From Pirellulales bacterium (GTDB taxonomy: Bacteria; Planctomycetota; Planctomycetia; Pirellulales; Lacipirellulaceae): a stretch of DNA of 64,000 nt. The notes under the pieces were generated by a model. It saw only the letters and a program-made list of their open reading frames with translations. It ran no database searches and was not told the origin of the DNA. Positions 4,310 to 46,786 of the stretch are shown here, in pieces; position 1 is the stretch's first letter, and each line of letters begins with the position of its first letter. The position numbers were made by a program, and so were the translations under genes. The stretch covers positions 124,001 through 188,000 of the forward strand of contig JANQOF010000054.1 of the NCBI GenBank assembly GCA_028279215.1. Direction: 5' to 3'.

Positions 4310-5557
4310 TCACGACGTCGATTCCAATTCAATCGTCGCCTCAGGCGAAGTAAGCAGATCGATTCCGAGCTTCTTGGCTCGCTGTAGGACAATGGTTCGA
4401 TGGTCGGCATGATCGAAGCTGGCGACCGCGCGAAGCGCGTTGTTCGTGAGCGGCGTGGGGAGTAGGGCTTCCAACTCCAGCGGCTTGCGCCCATCGTCTT
4501 CAAACGCGCTAAGTTGGCGCAGGAAGTCGCCAAGGATCGTTTCTTGGTCGTACCACTCTTCGGGCACGGTTGCGGGCGAATTACACTCCAGCCTCACCGT
4601 CCAACACAGCGGCGATCGCCGCGACGCTCGTTTCTGCAGCCGTTCAATTAAGGCATCCACCTCGGTGCCCGGCCGTAGTTGCGCGACGAGTGGCCCAGTT
4701 CCGCGCACATGCCAAGTCACGAGCAGATCGGTGCCTTGCGATTTTTGCCGTAGCTTATCGAGTCGTTCGTCGAGTCGTTCTTCCAGTTGTTCGAGAGTGG
4801 TCGACGCGGTGACCTCCAGCGTTTCGTCCACCCATCGTATAATGTCGGTCGAAATGAACTTGGTCGACGTCTTGCCGTCCACCACGTGCACCAGTGTGCA
4901 ACCACTCGGGCCCGCTTCGGACGGCGAGCGGCCTTGGGGCGACCCGCTGTAGTGCGCGATTCCCGGTTCGGTGTCGACCGTTGCCCGACGGTGTCGACCG
5001 CCGAGGGCCATGTAATGCACTCGGTCGCCTTCGCGGCCGGGCGCGTCGTTGGTGCTAAAGGCCACGCCGACAGTGAATAGCCCGTTGGCGTCGCGATGAA
5101 ATCCACTGGCGTCCACAGCGCCGGCGGCGTCGCTGCTGACACCCTGCACGCGGGCAATTATCTTACCTTCTCGCTTTAGCTCGACCGACTCGACTCGTCC
5201 CTTGCCAAACCGATGGACGTTTGGCGGCAGCTCCGCTACCATCGGCCAGTCGTCCGGCCCGTCGATCGCGCCACCCGCCCAGAACACTTCCACTCCGCGC
5301 GCTCGAAGTCGCTTGAATTGTTCCTGCAAGAACACGATGGCACGGGGGCCGCTGCGGTCGAGATCTACAACATCGCCCGAGAGCAACAGCGCGTCGGCAC
5401 CCTCGACCAGCGTGGTCTCGATCACCTGTTGCGCTGCCAGGTATGCCGCATCGCGGGCGACCTCGCGCAAATCGTCCGATAGACTTGGCAGCCCGGCGAG
5501 TGGCGCCTCGAGGTGCCAGTCGCTGGAATGCACAAGGCGGATTTCGGGCCGTTGCAT
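4310..5557 (-). CDS. YhaO-like metallophosphoesterase (SbcD/Mre11 type)
   Basis: A 415-residue calcineurin-like phosphoesterase preceding a YhaN-like ATPase. The first two metal motifs are normal: HSSDWHLE near residue 10 and SGDVVDLD near 60. The motif normally reading GNHD is replaced by AGGAIDGPDD, and the later GHxH motif reads GGRHR, so two metal or catalytic histidines appear to be missing. The region after it (YSGSPQGRSPSEAGP) matches the Mre11-type capping region. The start at 5557 has a good ribosome site (GGGAGG) 5 bp upstream. The two genes probably form one operon. The family cleaves DNA ends; activity here is uncertain because of the altered motifs. Confidence 0.85.
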   Translation of the reverse strand: MQRPEIRLVHSSDWHLEAPLAGLPSLSDDLREVARDAAYLAAQQVIETTLVEGADALLLSGDVVDLDRSGPRAIVFLQEQFKRLRARGVEVFWAGGAIDGPDDWPMVAELPPNVHRFGKGRVESVELKREGKIIARVQGVSSDAAGAVDASGFHRDANGLFTVGVAFSTNDAPGREGDRVHYMALGGRHRRATVDTEPGIAHYSGSPQGRSPSEAGPSGCTLVHVVDGKTSTKFISTDIIRWVDETLEVTASTTLEQLEERLDERLDKLRQKSQGTDLLVTWHVRGTGPLVAQLRPGTEVDALIERLQKRASRRSPLCWTVRLECNSPATVPEEWYDQETILGDFLRQLSAFEDDGRKPLELEALLPTPLTNNALRAVASFDHADHRTIVLQRAKKLGIDLLTSPEATIELESTS

Positions 5558-13036: not shown

Positions 13037-13321
13037 ATGCCTACTTTGACCGATTTGCCAACCGCCCCCTTGGACGAACCGACGGTGGCTCCTGTGTGTC
13101 TTCCACCTTATGCGTATGAAAAGGCATCAGACCCGTTCGACGACTTCGACGACGATGACTTCGACGACGATTTCGACGACGACTTCGAAGAGGAGTGGGA
13201 CGACGAAACGATCGAAGACGAATTCGCCGACGAGTTCGAACCCGACGAACCCGCCGAAGTTGACGGCGACGAAGATGAAGGCGGCGACACGTTTAATGAC
13301 GACGAGGACTTTGATGATTAA
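13037..13321 (+). CDS. Small highly acidic Asp/Glu-rich protein
   Basis: A 94-residue protein. After a plain N-terminus (MPTLTDLPTAPLDEP) about two thirds of the residues from 35 onward are Asp or Glu, with tandem DDDFDDDF-like units and regularly spaced Phe or Trp. Such composition suggests a disordered, strongly charged protein that might bind basic proteins or divalent ions, but nothing shows a function. It directly precedes ileS on the same strand, separated by an inverted-repeat element. The 5' region 12751-13036 has no other gene. Confidence 0.6.
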   Translation: MPTLTDLPTAPLDEPTVAPVCLPPYAYEKASDPFDDFDDDDFDDDFDDDFEEEWDDETIEDEFADEFEPDEPAEVDGDEDEGGDTFNDDEDFDD

Positions 13322-38169: not shown

Positions 38170-39924
38170 TTACTCGGCGGCGACCGTTTGTTCGACCGCT
38201 TCGAGCAATTGATCGAGGCGGAACGGCTTATAGAGCACGTGCTTCAGGCCGGCTTGGCGGGCTTTGACAATCGAGTGGCCTGGATCGTAGCCGAATCCGG
38301 TCATCAGGATCATTGGGACGTGCTCGCTCATCTCCCCGAGCTTGACCATGAGCTGATGCCCCGACATGTCGGGCAGTCGAATGTCGGCGATGATTGCGTC
38401 GTACTTTTGCCCAGTGCCAAGGTTGCGAACCATGAAGATGGCTTCTTTACCATCGTGAGCCGTTTCGACCACGCAGTTGTATCGATCGAGCAAAGCGTGG
38501 GCCGCGCTGCGGACGCCTTCGTCTTCGTCGACCACCAGCACCCGCTTGCCAACCAAGATGGGCCGCTGATCGACGCGCGCCGACCCGGGGCGGGCTTCGA
38601 CCGGCGCCATCGCTTGGCCTACTTTGTGAATCACTTGCTTGATGTCGCGAGCGTTGAGCAAAATGTGCTGCAGGCGTTCGACTACCTCTGGTTCGTGGCC
38701 GATGTACTTCTCCATCACGTTCACCGCGTCGTTCAGAATGTCGTCGACTGGGCGTGCCACCGCACTGTGGATGGCTTCGACGCTGGCCGCCGCCGTAGTG
38801 GCCTTTTCCGCGGCCAACAGGTCGAGCGTGTTGAGCGCCACCGCCACATCGCGAGAGAAGATTTCGACAAACTGCAAGTCGCTCTCGTTAAACGCGCTAA
38901 TCTCGGGGCTTTCAACATTAAAAGTGCCGATCACGTTGTCGTGCAGCATCAACGGCACCGTTAGCGAACTCTTGGCCCCGTGGCTGCCCTCAAGGTATAG
39001 CCGGTCTTTGCTCGTGTCCTCGCACAGGTAGCTCTTTCCCGTACTGGCTACAAAACCGGTGACCCCGTTGTCCTCGACCGACGCTCGTAGCTCGCGAGCC
39101 GCGGCTTCGGGTTTCATGCCAACCGACAGCAGCGGTTTGAGTGTGCCGGTTGCCTGGTCGAGCATGCGAATTTCAACCACATCGAATTGCAACACGTCCT
39201 GCGTGCAATGCAGGATGTTGTCTTTCAGCAAATCAATTCGCCCGCGGAAGTCCATGTCGGTGACGTCTTCGGGCGTGAGGTCGGCCAATTCGATACCGGC
39301 CTGATGAATGTTGGCTAACTTCTGTTGCTCCAGGTGCTCGTCGGTCACATCGCGAATGGTCACAATCAAGTGACGCTGCGCGTCGCCACCTTCGAACACG
39401 GGCGCGGCGTGAACTCGATAACAACGATTGTCTCGTGATCGTAGCGTGCTGGCGCTGGGGTGGTCGGTCGTCAGCGCGCGGCTAAAGGGGCAGAAGTCAG
39501 AACCGAATATCTCGGGATCCGAAAGGACCGTGTAGATGTTTTGCCCAACCACGTCCGACGAACCAACCCATTCGCCAAGCCGGCCGTTACTCCACACGAC
39601 GGTGTTTTCGCTGTTCAGCAGCACGACGCCATCGGGCATGCTTTGCAGAATGTGCTGATTCTGCATGGCGCGGCCCGCATCGAATGCGGCAGAGAAGTGC
39701 TCGGCATCGGCGTACACGCCAATGAACTCGCCGCGCGACAACTCCGCGATGGCGCGCGTTGGCGATCCGACGCGAACGACCTTTACCTGGTCGCCAAATC
39801 GATCTTGAATGGCGACGACCTGATCGTGGCTGCCACCCAAACAAAGAATCTGCGGTTTTTCGTCGGCAACCGCTACCGGGCGAGGCTCGCTCTCGTTTTG
39901 CTGCTCATGCACGTCGTCAGGCAC
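38170..39924 (-). CDS. PAS-GAF-receiver signalling protein
   Basis: A 584-residue cytoplasmic protein. A PAS-like domain (MPDGVVLLNSENTVVWSN, about residues 95-195) and a GAF domain (about 230-370, TVPLMLHDNVIGTFNVE) are followed by a helical linker and a C-terminal receiver domain (residues about 455-580). The receiver acids are VDEDEG, the phosphorylation Asp in IIADIRLPDMSG, and Lys in LYKPF. No histidine kinase or output domain is visible, so the receiver is probably the output. It uses a GTG start. It is likely cotranscribed with the metallophosphoesterase. Confidence 0.85.
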   Translation of the reverse strand: MPDDVHEQQNESEPRPVAVADEKPQILCLGGSHDQVVAIQDRFGDQVKVVRVGSPTRAIAELSRGEFIGVYADAEHFSAAFDAGRAMQNQHILQSMPDGVVLLNSENTVVWSNGRLGEWVGSSDVVGQNIYTVLSDPEIFGSDFCPFSRALTTDHPSASTLRSRDNRCYRVHAAPVFEGGDAQRHLIVTIRDVTDEHLEQQKLANIHQAGIELADLTPEDVTDMDFRGRIDLLKDNILHCTQDVLQFDVVEIRMLDQATGTLKPLLSVGMKPEAAARELRASVEDNGVTGFVASTGKSYLCEDTSKDRLYLEGSHGAKSSLTVPLMLHDNVIGTFNVESPEISAFNESDLQFVEIFSRDVAVALNTLDLLAAEKATTAAASVEAIHSAVARPVDDILNDAVNVMEKYIGHEPEVVERLQHILLNARDIKQVIHKVGQAMAPVEARPGSARVDQRPILVGKRVLVVDEDEGVRSAAHALLDRYNCVVETAHDGKEAIFMVRNLGTGQKYDAIIADIRLPDMSGHQLMVKLGEMSEHVPMILMTGFGYDPGHSIVKARQAGLKHVLYKPFRLDQLLEAVEQTVAAE

Positions 39925-40301
39925 CGTCGCTTCCCGCTGGGGTGGGTCGATGGGGGAAACGGCGCAGAACTCCGGTGGGCAGGCAGAGGTGGAGCCCTAC
40001 GTCAAAAATTCAGGTTCTCAAGCACTTTCTTCACTGGAATTATAGGGCAAAGACGTATGAGCAACAAGCTTTTGCGCATCCGACGCCCTACTGCCGTATC
40101 GGTGCGCCGCGTCGCGGTAATTTGGCGGTGTCACACAGAATCTGCGGATTCTCAACCGGCGGCCAGTCATATTCCTACCGGGCTGTACAATCGGTCGGCT
40201 GGCGAATACAACAGCCGATCCTGACCGAGCCGAATTCGCGGCGATCAACGGTCTGCTCCCCGCCTGTGTCCCACTCTGCCCACCCGCGCGTGTCCTGCCC
40301 G
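39925..40301. other. Divergent promoter region, 377 bp
   Basis: Separates the receiver protein gene and typA, which diverge. The typA frame stays open into it but without protein-like content. No clear promoter pair, hairpin or repeat stands out beyond GC-rich sequence. Confidence 0.4.
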
Positions 40302-42176
40302 ATGACGACTCCCGGTTCGTTGCATTTGCGCAACGTCGCAATTATCGCGCACGTCGACCACGGCAAGACCAGTTTGGTCGACAAGCTGCTTTATCAGTCG
40401 GGGCTGTATCGTGCTGAGGAACTCGACCGCCGCGCCGGTGGCCAGCACGGGCTCGTGCTTGATACGGGCGATCTGGAGCGGGAACGCGGCATCACGATCC
40501 TCAGTAAGAACTGCGCCGTCAACTACACCGCCAGCGATGGCGAAACCTACCGAATCAATCTGATCGATACCCCGGGCCACGCCGATTTTGGGGGCGAAGT
40601 CGAGCGCGTGCTCACCATGGCCGACGGCGCGCTGCTAGTGGTCGACGCGTTTGAGGGACCCATGCCGCAAACCCGTTTTGTGCTCCAAAAGGCCCTTGCA
40701 TGCGGGTTGCGGCCGCTGGTGGTCGTCAACAAGGTCGACCGCCCAGACGGCAGACCCGACGAAGTGGTGACCGAGGTGTTCGACTTGCTCGCCGAATTGG
40801 GCGCGGACGACGAGGCGCTCGACTTCCAAACGGTGTTCGCGTCGGCCAAAGAGGGTTGGGCCGATCGCGAGGTCGATGGCCAGCGGAGCGACATGCGTGC
40901 CCTATTCGAAGCGATTGTCGAGTGGGTGCCGCCGCCACGGTTTGCCGACGTCGATGCGCCGACGCAGTTGTTGGTGACCAGTATCGACTATTCCGACTAT
41001 GTCGGCCGTATTGCAATCGGTCGCATTTTCGGTGGAGCGCTCACGGCGCGGCAGCGCGTGGCCGTAATCGATCACACAGGCGCAGTCACCGAGCAACAGA
41101 TCCTCCAACTGCTGGCATTCAACGGCCTGGAACGCCGTGAGACGTCGCGGGTCGAGGCCGGCGACTTGTGCGCAGTAGTAGGACTCGATCCGATCCACAT
41201 CGGCGATACCATTGCCGACGCGTCCCGCCCCGAGGCGCTACCTTCGGTGAAGGTTGACGAACCGACCTTGCACATGACGTTTCGAGTGAACGACGGGCCG
41301 TTCAGCGGTCGCGACGGCAAGTACCTCACCAGCCGCCAAGTTGGCGATCGCCTGGAGCGCGAGTTGCGGTCGAACGTCGCCTTGCGAGTCGAGCCGGGCG
41401 ACACCATGGAGCAGTATCGCGTCAGCGGACGGGGGCTGATGCACTTGGGTATCTTGATCGAAAACATGCGCCGCGAAGGCTTCGAACTGTGCGTGGGCAA
41501 GCCCCACGTGGTGGTCAGGGAACTCGATGGACACAAGGAAGAGCCGATCGAACTGCTGGTGGTCGACGTGCCCGACGAGCACCAAAGTGCGGTGATGTCG
41601 CTGCTTGGCGACCGACGGGCCGAGTTAATCAAAATGGGCTACAAAACCGGAACGAGCGGCTTTGTGCACATGGAATTCTCGATCCCGGCTCGGGCCATGA
41701 TCGGACTGCGGAGTCGGCTGCTCACGGCCACCCAGGGACACGCCGTGATTCACCACACCTTGCTTGGCTACCAGCGGGCGCGCGGCGGCGTGGTGCATCG
41801 GTCGGCTGGCGTCCTGATTGCGAACGAAACGGGCCCCGTAACTGCCTACTCGCTCGATGCGTTGTACGATCGCGGTTCCTTCTTCGTCAAACCTGGCGAC
41901 GAAGTGTACGAGGGGCAGATCGTGGGAGAGCATTGCAAGAGCGACGACCTTGTTGTCAACGTGGTCCGCGGCAAGAAGCTCACCAATATTCGCGCCGCCG
42001 GCAAGGACGACAACAGCCAGGTTCGTCCAGTGCGTGAAATGTCGCTCGAGGCGTGCCTGGAGTACATCGACGACGACGAGTTGGTGGAAGTGACACCGAA
42101 CAACATTCGGCTCCGCAAAACTCTGCTGAAGGAGTCCGACCGGCGACGCCAATCGCGACGGGCAGCTAGCACGTAA
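40302..42176 (+). CDS. typA: Translational GTPase TypA/BipA
   Basis: A 624-residue ribosome-associated GTPase. G1 is AHVDHGKTSLVDKLL near residue 15, G2 is the ERGITI segment, G3 is DTPGHADFGGEVERV, and G4 is NKVDRP near 141. The TypA-specific C-terminal region is recognisable (LRSRLLTATQGHAVIHHTLLGY and the last DDDELVEVTPNNIRLRK). It is needed in other bacteria for growth at low temperature and stress through 50S assembly. The longer frame upstream of the ATG at 40302 is rejected. It stands before the sigma-factor operon, 94 bp away. Confidence 0.97.
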   Translation: MTTPGSLHLRNVAIIAHVDHGKTSLVDKLLYQSGLYRAEELDRRAGGQHGLVLDTGDLERERGITILSKNCAVNYTASDGETYRINLIDTPGHADFGGEVERVLTMADGALLVVDAFEGPMPQTRFVLQKALACGLRPLVVVNKVDRPDGRPDEVVTEVFDLLAELGADDEALDFQTVFASAKEGWADREVDGQRSDMRALFEAIVEWVPPPRFADVDAPTQLLVTSIDYSDYVGRIAIGRIFGGALTARQRVAVIDHTGAVTEQQILQLLAFNGLERRETSRVEAGDLCAVVGLDPIHIGDTIADASRPEALPSVKVDEPTLHMTFRVNDGPFSGRDGKYLTSRQVGDRLERELRSNVALRVEPGDTMEQYRVSGRGLMHLGILIENMRREGFELCVGKPHVVVRELDGHKEEPIELLVVDVPDEHQSAVMSLLGDRRAELIKMGYKTGTSGFVHMEFSIPARAMIGLRSRLLTATQGHAVIHHTLLGYQRARGGVVHRSAGVLIANETGPVTAYSLDALYDRGSFFVKPGDEVYEGQIVGEHCKSDDLVVNVVRGKKLTNIRAAGKDDNSQVRPVREMSLEACLEYIDDDELVEVTPNNIRLRKTLLKESDRRRQSRRAAST

Positions 42177-44371: not shown

Positions 44372-45190
44372 ATGTCAGTTGTTAGCAGTGCATCGTTGAG
44401 AACGCGGCGAGGCGCTTCGCTCCTTGAAATCGCAGCTTGTATTTTCGCCGTGGCCGTTGGTGTATGGCTCGGCGCTCAGTACTTGGGCTTGAACCTGCAT
44501 GCGGCGGCCTACACAGCGCTCACCAAGACGGACGTCATGGATCAATTGCCGGAAGACTGGCGACTTGCCCCTCCGGCTGGCATGGAGCCGTTGACCGCCG
44601 AACAAGAAGCGCTCGCGTTGAGTGCCGAGTTGGAACAGCTGCGGCTCGAAGTGGCCCAGCTCAGTTCTGACGCAGAAGCGGAAGTCACGACGTTCAGCGT
44701 CGAGTCGACTGCCAATTTGCACCCCGATTTGCTGATCCGTCGTCAACACACGCTGGCATTCTGGTCGCAACTGGGGGGCATTCGCGACGAGGTCGATCGC
44801 CTCCAAGCCTCGGCCGACAACGCCATCAACCACAGCAATGTCTATAAGGTGTTGGACGTCCGCCGTAAGGCGTATGAGTACGGCGCCAAAGCCGTGAAGG
44901 TGGCTATGACCGACGCGGTCGATCCACAAGCGTTACAATTCGCCGAGCAACTCGTTTCGTGGTACGAACATGGCGCCGAACTCTACGGCGAGGCCATGAG
45001 CATCTGGCAGGGAGAGCACCCGCCGCTTGGCGGGTTCACGAGCGATCAGTTGCTCGAGCAGGTGCAGCAGCAGCACGATAACGAAGCGCTGCTCTTGTTC
45101 CAGAAAAGCGGCCGACTGTGCGAGGTGCTGTTTCGCCGCTATCAGGTCGCGTTCCCCAAAATCGACGACCCAACGGCTCGTCAAAATTAG
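44372..45190 (+). CDS. Prepilin-like protein
   Basis: A 272-residue protein. The N-terminus RTRRGASLLEIAACIF has the layout of a type IV prepilin/pseudopilin: a basic leader, a cleavage Gly (residue 14), then hydrophobic residues with Glu at position +5. One membrane helix (about 17-40) follows. The rest is helical and hydrophilic, with a low-similarity coiled-coil part. A prepilin peptidase is not in the window, so processing is inferred from the motif alone. Could also be a plain type II-anchored membrane protein. Confidence 0.6.
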   Translation: MSVVSSASLRTRRGASLLEIAACIFAVAVGVWLGAQYLGLNLHAAAYTALTKTDVMDQLPEDWRLAPPAGMEPLTAEQEALALSAELEQLRLEVAQLSSDAEAEVTTFSVESTANLHPDLLIRRQHTLAFWSQLGGIRDEVDRLQASADNAINHSNVYKVLDVRRKAYEYGAKAVKVAMTDAVDPQALQFAEQLVSWYEHGAELYGEAMSIWQGEHPPLGGFTSDQLLEQVQQQHDNEALLLFQKSGRLCEVLFRRYQVAFPKIDDPTARQN

Positions 45191-45463
45191 CCACTATCCG
45201 AGACCATTGGACATCCAACGAGGGGATGCTAGTACCTCGGCACATGGGCCACTGGGTGCGAGAATGGAGTGTTAGGCCGAGTAATTGCTGGGGTTGAATG
45301 GCGGCTGTCGGCCATTCGGTTGATTGCGTCGGCATGTCGTCGTGGGTACCATGGATGCGTTGATTTTTCGATTTCCGCTCACCTGGGGCTGGGAGCGATC
45401 AGTCCTAGGTTTCACCAACATATTGCAAGCCACATTTGGAATTTGAAACGAAGAGGGTTACTC

Positions 45464-46786
45464 ATGCGATTATTACGTCGCCGGTTGCGTGTTGTTTTGG
45501 TTATTGCTCTTTGTCTGGTGCTTACGGTCGACCCAGCGTCGGCTTGCCATTGGTTCGGAGCCCGCTGGTTCAATCGTTGCTCGCCTTGCGCTAGCTATTG
45601 TCAACCGGCCTGCTACACCGTTCACTCTTGCGCGCCTAGCTGCGGTTACACCAGGAGCTGTGACAGTGGCTGCTGGTCGGGATGCGAATCGGACGTGGTA
45701 ACATCGTCCGCGTGTGGATGCGGCGAGTCGGTGGTAGACCATTCGGCGACGGTGATTGAAGGTTCGCCGACAGCGTCTCACGCCGAGCCGACACCCACTT
45801 GGTCGGCGACCGAGCCAGCCACGGACCGCGCCGTCAACAAACCGGCCGAAGATATCAATCCGGCACCATTGCTGGTAGACGACGCCGTCGCCGAGCCAAT
45901 GCCGGTGCCCGAAGCTCCTGTCGACGATATGGTCGCCCCACTGGACAGCGGACCTATCGATGAGCCAGTGGCGGACGACAATATGTTCGCGGCACCCGTC
46001 GATGAGCCGGTGGCAGAAGCGCCCGCCGCAGTTCAGCCGGCCGACAACGTAGCCCCGGCCAACGAGCCAGCGCCAGCCGACGATGGATTGTTTGGTGCTC
46101 CGGCCGACGAGCCGCCCGACGACGGACTCTTTGGCGCCCCCGCCGACGAGCCCGCCCAGGAGCCTGTCGACGACGATGGCCTATTCGGCGCCCCCGCCGA
46201 CGAGCCGGCTGCCGACGATGGATTGTTCGGCGCACCCGCCGAAGGGCCGGCGCCTGAACAGGCCGCCCATGACGGTGGGCTGTTCGGTGCGCCAGCCGAC
46301 GACGCTGCCCCCGGGGACGACGGTTTGTTCGGCGCGCCGGTTGAAGAGGCCGCTCCGGCGGAGCAAGTTGAAGACGGCTTGTTCGGAGCTCCTGCTGAAG
46401 AAGCGCCGATGGATGATGGTTTGTTTGGTGCTCCGGCCGAAGAACCTGCCCCGGCCGACGACGGCCTGTTTGGGCCTGCCGACGAACCTGCCGACGATGC
46501 ACCCGCCGACGACGGAGAGGGCGACCTATTCAATTTTGGTTCGGTGCTTGAGTCGCCAGGCGGATTGAGTAGTCTTTCGCTTCGTCACTGGGTCGACAAC
46601 ACCGGCCAATACGCAGTCGACGCCCGACTGATCGCCGTCGCCGATGGCCATGTGCGATTGCTCAAAGCCAACGGCCGCACCGCCACGGTTGCCTTCAGTC
46701 GCTTAAGCGACGAAGACCTCTCGTTCGTCAATCGCCAAGCGGCAGCCGAGCGCGCGAAGACGCTCTCGCGAACGGCTCAGCGCTAA
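45464..46786 (+). CDS. Secreted Cys-rich protein with DDGLFGAPADEP repeats and SHD1 domain
   Basis: A 440-residue exported protein. A signal peptide (RLRVVLVIALCLVLTVDPASA) leads to a Cys-rich block (SCAPSCGYTRSCDSGCWSGC, residues about 35-75). Then come an acidic Pro/Ala linker and about nine near-tandem units of the pattern DDGLFGAPAxEP (residues about 205-345). A C-terminal SHD1 domain follows (LRHWVDNTGQYAVDARLIAV, about 370-430). SHD1 domains are widespread in planctomycetes. No enzymatic motif. The frame is open further upstream, but the ATG at 45464 starts the signal peptide. A structural or cell-surface role is likely. Confidence 0.85.
   Translation: MRLLRRRLRVVLVIALCLVLTVDPASACHWFGARWFNRCSPCASYCQPACYTVHSCAPSCGYTRSCDSGCWSGCESDVVTSSACGCGESVVDHSATVIEGSPTASHAEPTPTWSATEPATDRAVNKPAEDINPAPLLVDDAVAEPMPVPEAPVDDMVAPLDSGPIDEPVADDNMFAAPVDEPVAEAPAAVQPADNVAPANEPAPADDGLFGAPADEPPDDGLFGAPADEPAQEPVDDDGLFGAPADEPAADDGLFGAPAEGPAPEQAAHDGGLFGAPADDAAPGDDGLFGAPVEEAAPAEQVEDGLFGAPAEEAPMDDGLFGAPAEEPAPADDGLFGPADEPADDAPADDGEGDLFNFGSVLESPGGLSSLSLRHWVDNTGQYAVDARLIAVADGHVRLLKANGRTATVAFSRLSDEDLSFVNRQAAAERAKTLSRTAQR

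Follow-up and report, generated by a model that had tools for sequence, protein, structure and literature searches.

The SHD1 domain has a described ligand in yeast: as stated in excerpts of a fungal review, the SHD1 domain of Sla1 recognises the peptide NPFX(1,2)D and, less effectively, the variants DPFxD, NPF and DPF (PMC7889276). In bacteria, SHD1 has been placed in secreted proteins with chromo-like domains, as an SH3-fold domain of extracellular proteins, and the excerpts of that work that bear on it mention no repeats, ligand or NPF motif (PMC5906684). Two further groups of proteins are close enough to the locus described here to be compared with it, namely the GLFG/FG nucleoporins of the Nup98 type and the Cys-rich YTV proteins, the latter reported, in excerpts of PMC8567305, from planctomycete cell-wall preparations. 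As of 2010 no Nup homologue was known in any planctomycete, according to excerpts of PMC2951903, and the terms 'FG-repeat', 'FG repeat' and 'FG-nup' are absent from a paper on pore-like structures in Gemmata (PMC5287468). Among the CC0, CC BY and CC BY-SA papers of PubMed Central, we found no printed statement of an SHD1-NPF pairing in planctomycetes.

The window analysed here, a stretch of 64,000 nucleotides from a Pirellulales bacterium, contains a gene for a 440-residue protein whose features are collected in Table 1. The original prediction had described it as a Cys-rich SHD1 protein with repeats, and this is confirmed by the ORF coordinates, the Cys count, the Pfam SHD1 match and LFG shuffles; the proposed exported, three-part anatomy, with a Cys-rich head, acidic repeats and SHD1, is likewise supported by the signal peptide, Pfam and alignment. 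The same ORF could mechanically begin at a GTG at 45269, but the ATG is favoured because it yields a signal peptide and because relatives align from about there. The N-terminus is basic, then hydrophobic, and ends in ASA, so that the protein is predicted to be exported; hydrophobic N-termini are found also in its relatives. A lipobox, and hence a canonical lipoprotein, is unlikely, since Cys28 is not conserved in an alignment of nine sequences. The head holds 12 of the 13 Cys of the whole protein, and a net negative linker is shared by 74 of the 76 relatives. Being exported and Cys-rich, the protein is similar to the YTV cell-wall proteins; Pfam includes a YTV model, which gave no match at E ≤ 1, and, unlike those proteins, the window protein shows at this threshold no Pfam family beyond SHD1 and Nucleoporin_FG.

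Table 1. Features of the SHD1 repeat gene and of its upstream neighbour, in positions of the window.
Feature	Position	Strand	Basis
CDS, 440 aa (P0001)	45464..46786	+	ATG 45464, stop ending 46786
Signal peptide, residues 1-27, ending ASA	45464..45544	+	judged by eye, of the signal peptidase I type
Cys-rich head, residues 28-86, 12 Cys	45545..45721	+	Cys count; heads of relatives likewise Cys-rich
Ala/Pro/Asp/Glu-rich linker, residues 93-371, net charge -65	45740..46576	+	composition
Nine GLFG repeat units, residues 206-345	46079..46498	+	motif count, codon comparison
Anchor motif DLFNFGSVLESPGGLSS before SHD1, residues 354-370	46523..46573	+	alignments, AlphaFold2 model, shuffles
SHD1 domain, residues 373-426	46580..46741	+	Pfam, PDB sequence search, Foldseek
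Upstream neighbour, 272 aa, N-terminal hydrophobic stretch, without Pfam match	44372..45190	+	ORF search, Pfam

The presence of an exported SHD1 domain and of nine ligand-like motifs on one chain offers a testable role for the unexplained bacterial SHD1, that of a receptor of short peptide tags. We propose that SHD1 serves outside the cytoplasm as the receptor of (N/D)(P/L)F motifs and that the window protein is a multivalent scaffold, receptor and ligand at once, of the wall or periplasm, a reading that we favour while rating it somewhat below an even chance. In this model the protein would be a multivalent linker located in the periplasm or in the cell wall; its SHD1 would be a peptide receptor, as in yeast Sla1, for a short (N/D)(P/L)F(G/A) motif and the GLFG repeats would be its multicopy ligand. 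Contacts between SHD1 and the motif would join the molecules to each other or to other SHD1 proteins, disulfides of the Cys-rich head could cross-link them, and the number of contacts would depend on that of the repeats. What the sequences show is the anatomy, its conservation, the interchange within the motif and the occurrence of NPF-class motifs together with SHD1; binding, partner, location and mesh are what we infer.

The identity of the domain is well supported. Pfam SHD1 (PF03983) matches with 57.3 bits against a curated cut-off of 23.7 (E 1.4e-15), a PDB sequence search finds the SHD1 of Sla1 (2hbp, E 3.6e-8), and this same structure is the only Foldseek match in the PDB at E ≤ 0.001 for the predicted SHD1 model (E 1.7e-4). 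The superposition of the predicted model on 2hbp, with a TM score of 0.70 by target length and an rmsd of 1.1 over 50 columns, indicates that the SH3-like SHD1 fold is present. The likeness to Sla1 thus extends to the sequence and predicted fold of the domain, to an F-centred motif flanked by acidic residues, and to the DPF and NPF forms that occur in relatives; it differs in that the window's SHD1 lies on an exported bacterial protein, with the motif in multicopy on the same chain and in the form GLFG, LFG being only putative as an SHD1 ligand. The statement of the original prediction that SHD1 is without known role fits the sparse literature but leaves aside the characterised yeast ligand NPFxD, which the repeats resemble.

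Structure prediction was less informative on the motif. In an AlphaFold2 model of the anchor plus SHD1, the SHD1 blocks reached a pLDDT of 93-96 and the VLESPGGLSS stretch 91, whereas the LF anchor had a block mean of 62, of low confidence; in a second model, of an SHD1 with a downstream NPF pair, the NPF blocks were at 51-56. Neither one-chain model placed the LF or NPF motif confidently on SHD1, and such prediction therefore neither supports nor excludes binding; the low confidence of the motifs counts against the receptor-ligand reading. The absence of a confident docking suits a different explanation, fairly unlikely in our judgement, according to which the repeats serve as structural spacers or are bound by another factor, while SHD1 has an unrelated task, for instance the binding of a wall polymer. 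The known pairing of SHD1 with NPFxD in yeast speaks against it, and further evidence on both sides is given below.

The repeats themselves cannot be ascribed to composition. LFG occurs nine times in residues 93-371, against a mean of 0.07 and a maximum of 2 in 20,000 shuffles, and the starts of the nine GLFG cores lie within residues 208-334, at irregular intervals of 13-19 residues. The nine units counted in the original prediction are thus all there, but the exact DDGLFGAPADEP is found in three of them only (208, 221 and 239); the other six depart from it at positions outside the core, the ninth being GLFGPADEP. The GLFG core itself, the Nucleoporin_FG call and an additional DLF just before SHD1 (residues 354-356, with F356 invariant in nine aligned sequences) had been overlooked.

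A neutral expansion of low-complexity sequence by slippage could be thought to have produced these units, and the number of repeats does differ between species: three genomes of a single genus have 9, 12 and 11 LFG, and the linkers of 76 relatives have 0 to 25 motifs each (median 5, shuffle mean 1.31). The original prediction had expected variation between strains; with a single genome for each species in the set, the differences seen here are all between species. It had named invariant repeats that are absent in relatives as speaking against it, and the repeats are neither. On the other hand, when the six core codons were compared among the nine units, 156 of the 216 pairwise comparisons differed, 140 of them synonymously and 16 non-synonymously, so that the core residues are fixed while nearly all the synonymous differences that the codons permit have arisen. 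The GLFG core is under purifying selection. That the amino acids were kept while the DNA drifted argues against recent slippage for the core, and the retention of the motif across eight families of the order stands against it as well. At the DNA level, Tandem Repeats Finder reported over the repeats only two two-copy arrays, with 83 and 84% matches. Slippage as the origin of the repeats is, in our opinion, very improbable: it is contradicted for the core by the codon comparison, and the spacers may still evolve in this way. Selection on the core argues also against the repeats and SHD1 having unrelated roles.

A second explanation of the repeats is that the protein is a bacterial relative of the FG nucleoporins. 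In fact, Pfam Nucleoporin_FG (PF13634) covers them with 60.2 bits against a cut-off of 32.2 (E 3.7e-16) and is called also in 7 of 9 close relatives, the best PDB sequence match is a nuclear pore protein (E 3.4e-17), and the window protein shares with the Nup98 type both GLFG cores at such distances and a linker without predicted fold. However, the match rests on biased repeats, with no nucleoporin domain beyond the repeat profile, and it concerns a protein that carries a signal peptide and is predicted to be exported. Unlike the Nup98 type, the protein is strongly acidic, lacks a nuclear pore context and is joined to SHD1, a union not demonstrated in the nucleoporin matches. Moreover, across relatives the motif core interchanges at the same places among DLFG, DPFG, DPFA and, occasionally, NPF. 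Nucleoporin homology was rejected on the grounds of export, of a match limited to the repeats and of this interchange of L and P before F; we consider it extremely improbable and judge the Nucleoporin_FG match to be convergent.

The protein belongs to a real, conserved, order-wide family. A first contig scan of the genomes confirmed no relative; 44 of 59 related genomes matched the protein at E ≤ 0.001, some via SHD1 alone, and the nearest named relative found was from Aeoliella straminimaris (Pirellulales), with 66% identity in the best segment (L094). Of 246 genomes of the order Pirellulales, 214 were matched by a profile built on the alignment of anchor plus SHD1, but of 392 genomes sampled phylum-wide Pfam SHD1 matched only 31; the abundance of SHD1 claimed for planctomycetes is to be qualified accordingly. 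Of the proteins matched within the order, 76 share the architecture of the window protein, 66 of them assigned by rule and ten moved by eye from 'other' to 'family', and the rule-based counts without these ten were similar; the labelled members fall in families f1, f3, f7, f8, f11, f13, f15 and f16.

In the linkers of this family the motif has a defined form. Around the linker F, D stands at -2 in 60% of cases (6.4 times background), L at -1 in 49% (13.5 times) and G at +1 in 48% (10 times), while P at -1 reaches 14%, only 0.8 times background, a value that counts against the receptor-ligand reading. String counts in 75 of the 76 linkers, one being too short, gave 277 DLF against 3.0 expected from composition shuffles, 82 DPF against 13.3 (maximum 22 in 300 shuffles) and 7 NPF against 1.5 (maximum 6), and the reversed strings FLD, FPD and FPN occurred 1, 0 and 0 times. 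An anchor-like motif within 45 residues before SHD1 was present in 61 of the 76 family proteins, where shuffles gave 11.4 on average and at most 20, a count to be read with the fact that the profile gathering the relatives (A2) contained the anchor columns and so favours members bearing it; the anchor F is conserved at or above 90% of 26 sequences. A charge complementarity between linker and SHD1 was also considered: the family SHD1 is the more basic, with a mean net charge of +2.3 against +0.25 and -0.13 in other SHD1 sets, but the idea, which fits this mean, fails for the window's own SHD1, whose net charge is 0.

In other architectures, too, NPF stands beside SHD1 far more often than by chance. 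In 43 SHD1 proteins outside the family, 18 NPF lie within 30 residues of SHD1, against 0.31 expected and a maximum of 3 in 2000 shuffles, and outside these flanks 22,085 residues hold a single NPF. A further 71 proteins, obtained phylum-wide with Pfam SHD1 alone after removal of the matches already found, gave 21 against 0.53 expected (maximum 4), with 4 NPF across the other 33,200 residues. This concentration beside SHD1, together with the rarity elsewhere in the same proteins, argues against unrelated roles of motif and domain. The carriers are 14 of 43 and 14 of 71 proteins, respectively; most SHD1 proteins outside the family (29/43 and 57/71) have no flanking NPF, as the unrelated-roles explanation would have it. 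When SHD1 and its flanks were masked, 25 of the 28 NPF bearers fell in one single-linkage cluster of 46 among the 114 non-family proteins, and only 4 of the 44 clusters contained NPF, a concentration that counts against the receptor-ligand reading. Two scanned members of the 46-protein cluster showed weak beta-propeller matches below Pfam's cut-off. The NPF occurs on either side of SHD1, at variable distance and often in two copies, and this varied placement makes a simple helix cap insufficient as an explanation. One protein (L236) has two SHD1 domains with two NPF motifs in between, and among the other SHD1 proteins of the window's genome one (L003) ends in NPFAP.

The motif was found also in exported proteins devoid of SHD1. 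One of them (L253, 607-1740 on the minus strand), from a genome of the same genus, has a row of DLFG motifs behind its signal peptide, has no Pfam domain above cut-off and by eye seems to resemble STN/secretin-type domains. It and its homologues (L254-L258, L260, L268, L272 and L284), which have no Pfam family above cut-off either, bear motifs of the forms DLFG, DPFG or NPFG, with several in succession behind the signal peptide. Among 30 homologues of at most 720 residues, longer ones being set aside, 14 contain [DN][LP]F, with 33 copies, 4 of them from the query, itself chosen for bearing the motif, against 4.9 expected and a maximum of 12 in 1000 shuffles; in seven, the motif is situated no more than about 70 residues from the start, and the ten homologues over 1000 residues that were left out hold together one related match, GGGLF. 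One such homologue, L284, comes from the genome of the window itself and has two motif copies, and the repeat region used as query in BLAST or HMMER found nothing else in that genome, which is weak evidence given the biased sequence. We regard these proteins as candidate ligands in trans.

As a control, the 163 other ORFs of the loci (85,279 residues) showed no excess of NPF, with 5 against 3.9 expected, and contained 38 [DN][LP]F against 34.0. In the 57 of them with a signal-like start, the counts were 22 [DN][LP]F against 11.4 (maximum 19), 13 DLF against 5.2 (maximum 11) and 4 NPF against 1.4 (maximum 5). These 57 ORFs may include unrecognised family members, but exported proteins in general may also have the motif somewhat commonly; the mild excess counts against the receptor-ligand reading and agrees with the alternative in which SHD1 and the repeats are unrelated.

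A further possibility is that the motif is indeed bound by SHD1 but that the repeats of the window protein dock a different SHD1 protein of the same cell, for example of the SHD1-beta-propeller type, making the window protein a display scaffold and not a self-assembling mesh. The window's genome has five SHD1 matches, and the motif on SHD1-less exported proteins implies that ligands are not restricted to SHD1 proteins. However, the window protein unites receptor and ligand in a single chain, and most of the family have a copy of the anchor next to SHD1; we hold this possibility to be unlikely.

If the receptor-plus-ligand scaffold is retained as the preferred reading, it could be extended to a planctomycete extracytoplasmic motif system of exported SHD1 receptors and (N/D)(P/L)F tags, with the window protein as its most multivalent form and a Cys-cross-linked mesh-builder. 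We consider this extension possible though doubtful. It would employ the same domain-ligand pair as the intracellular recognition of endocytic cargo in yeast and, if true, would mean that this peptide-recognition pair acts also outside the bacterial cytoplasm, would provide a function and a concrete ligand for a domain present in 214/246 Pirellulales genomes searched, and would give the unusual envelope of planctomycetes a further candidate for a component that forms a mesh.

The gene order around the gene is partly conserved: among 20 related loci, an ORF similar to the upstream neighbour was present in 15, a TypA-like neighbour in 14 and a protoporphyrinogen-oxidase-like neighbour in 13. In the TypA/BipA-like ORF of the window (39759-42176, plus strand) the GTPase domain begins only at residue 190, and its listed start is probably too far upstream. 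Elsewhere in the window, a short-period tandem array at 13138-13240, with periods of 12, 15 and 24 bases and the consensus CGACGACTTCGA, possibly codes for an acidic repeat with F, and a 12-base unit is present in three copies at 4758-4793.
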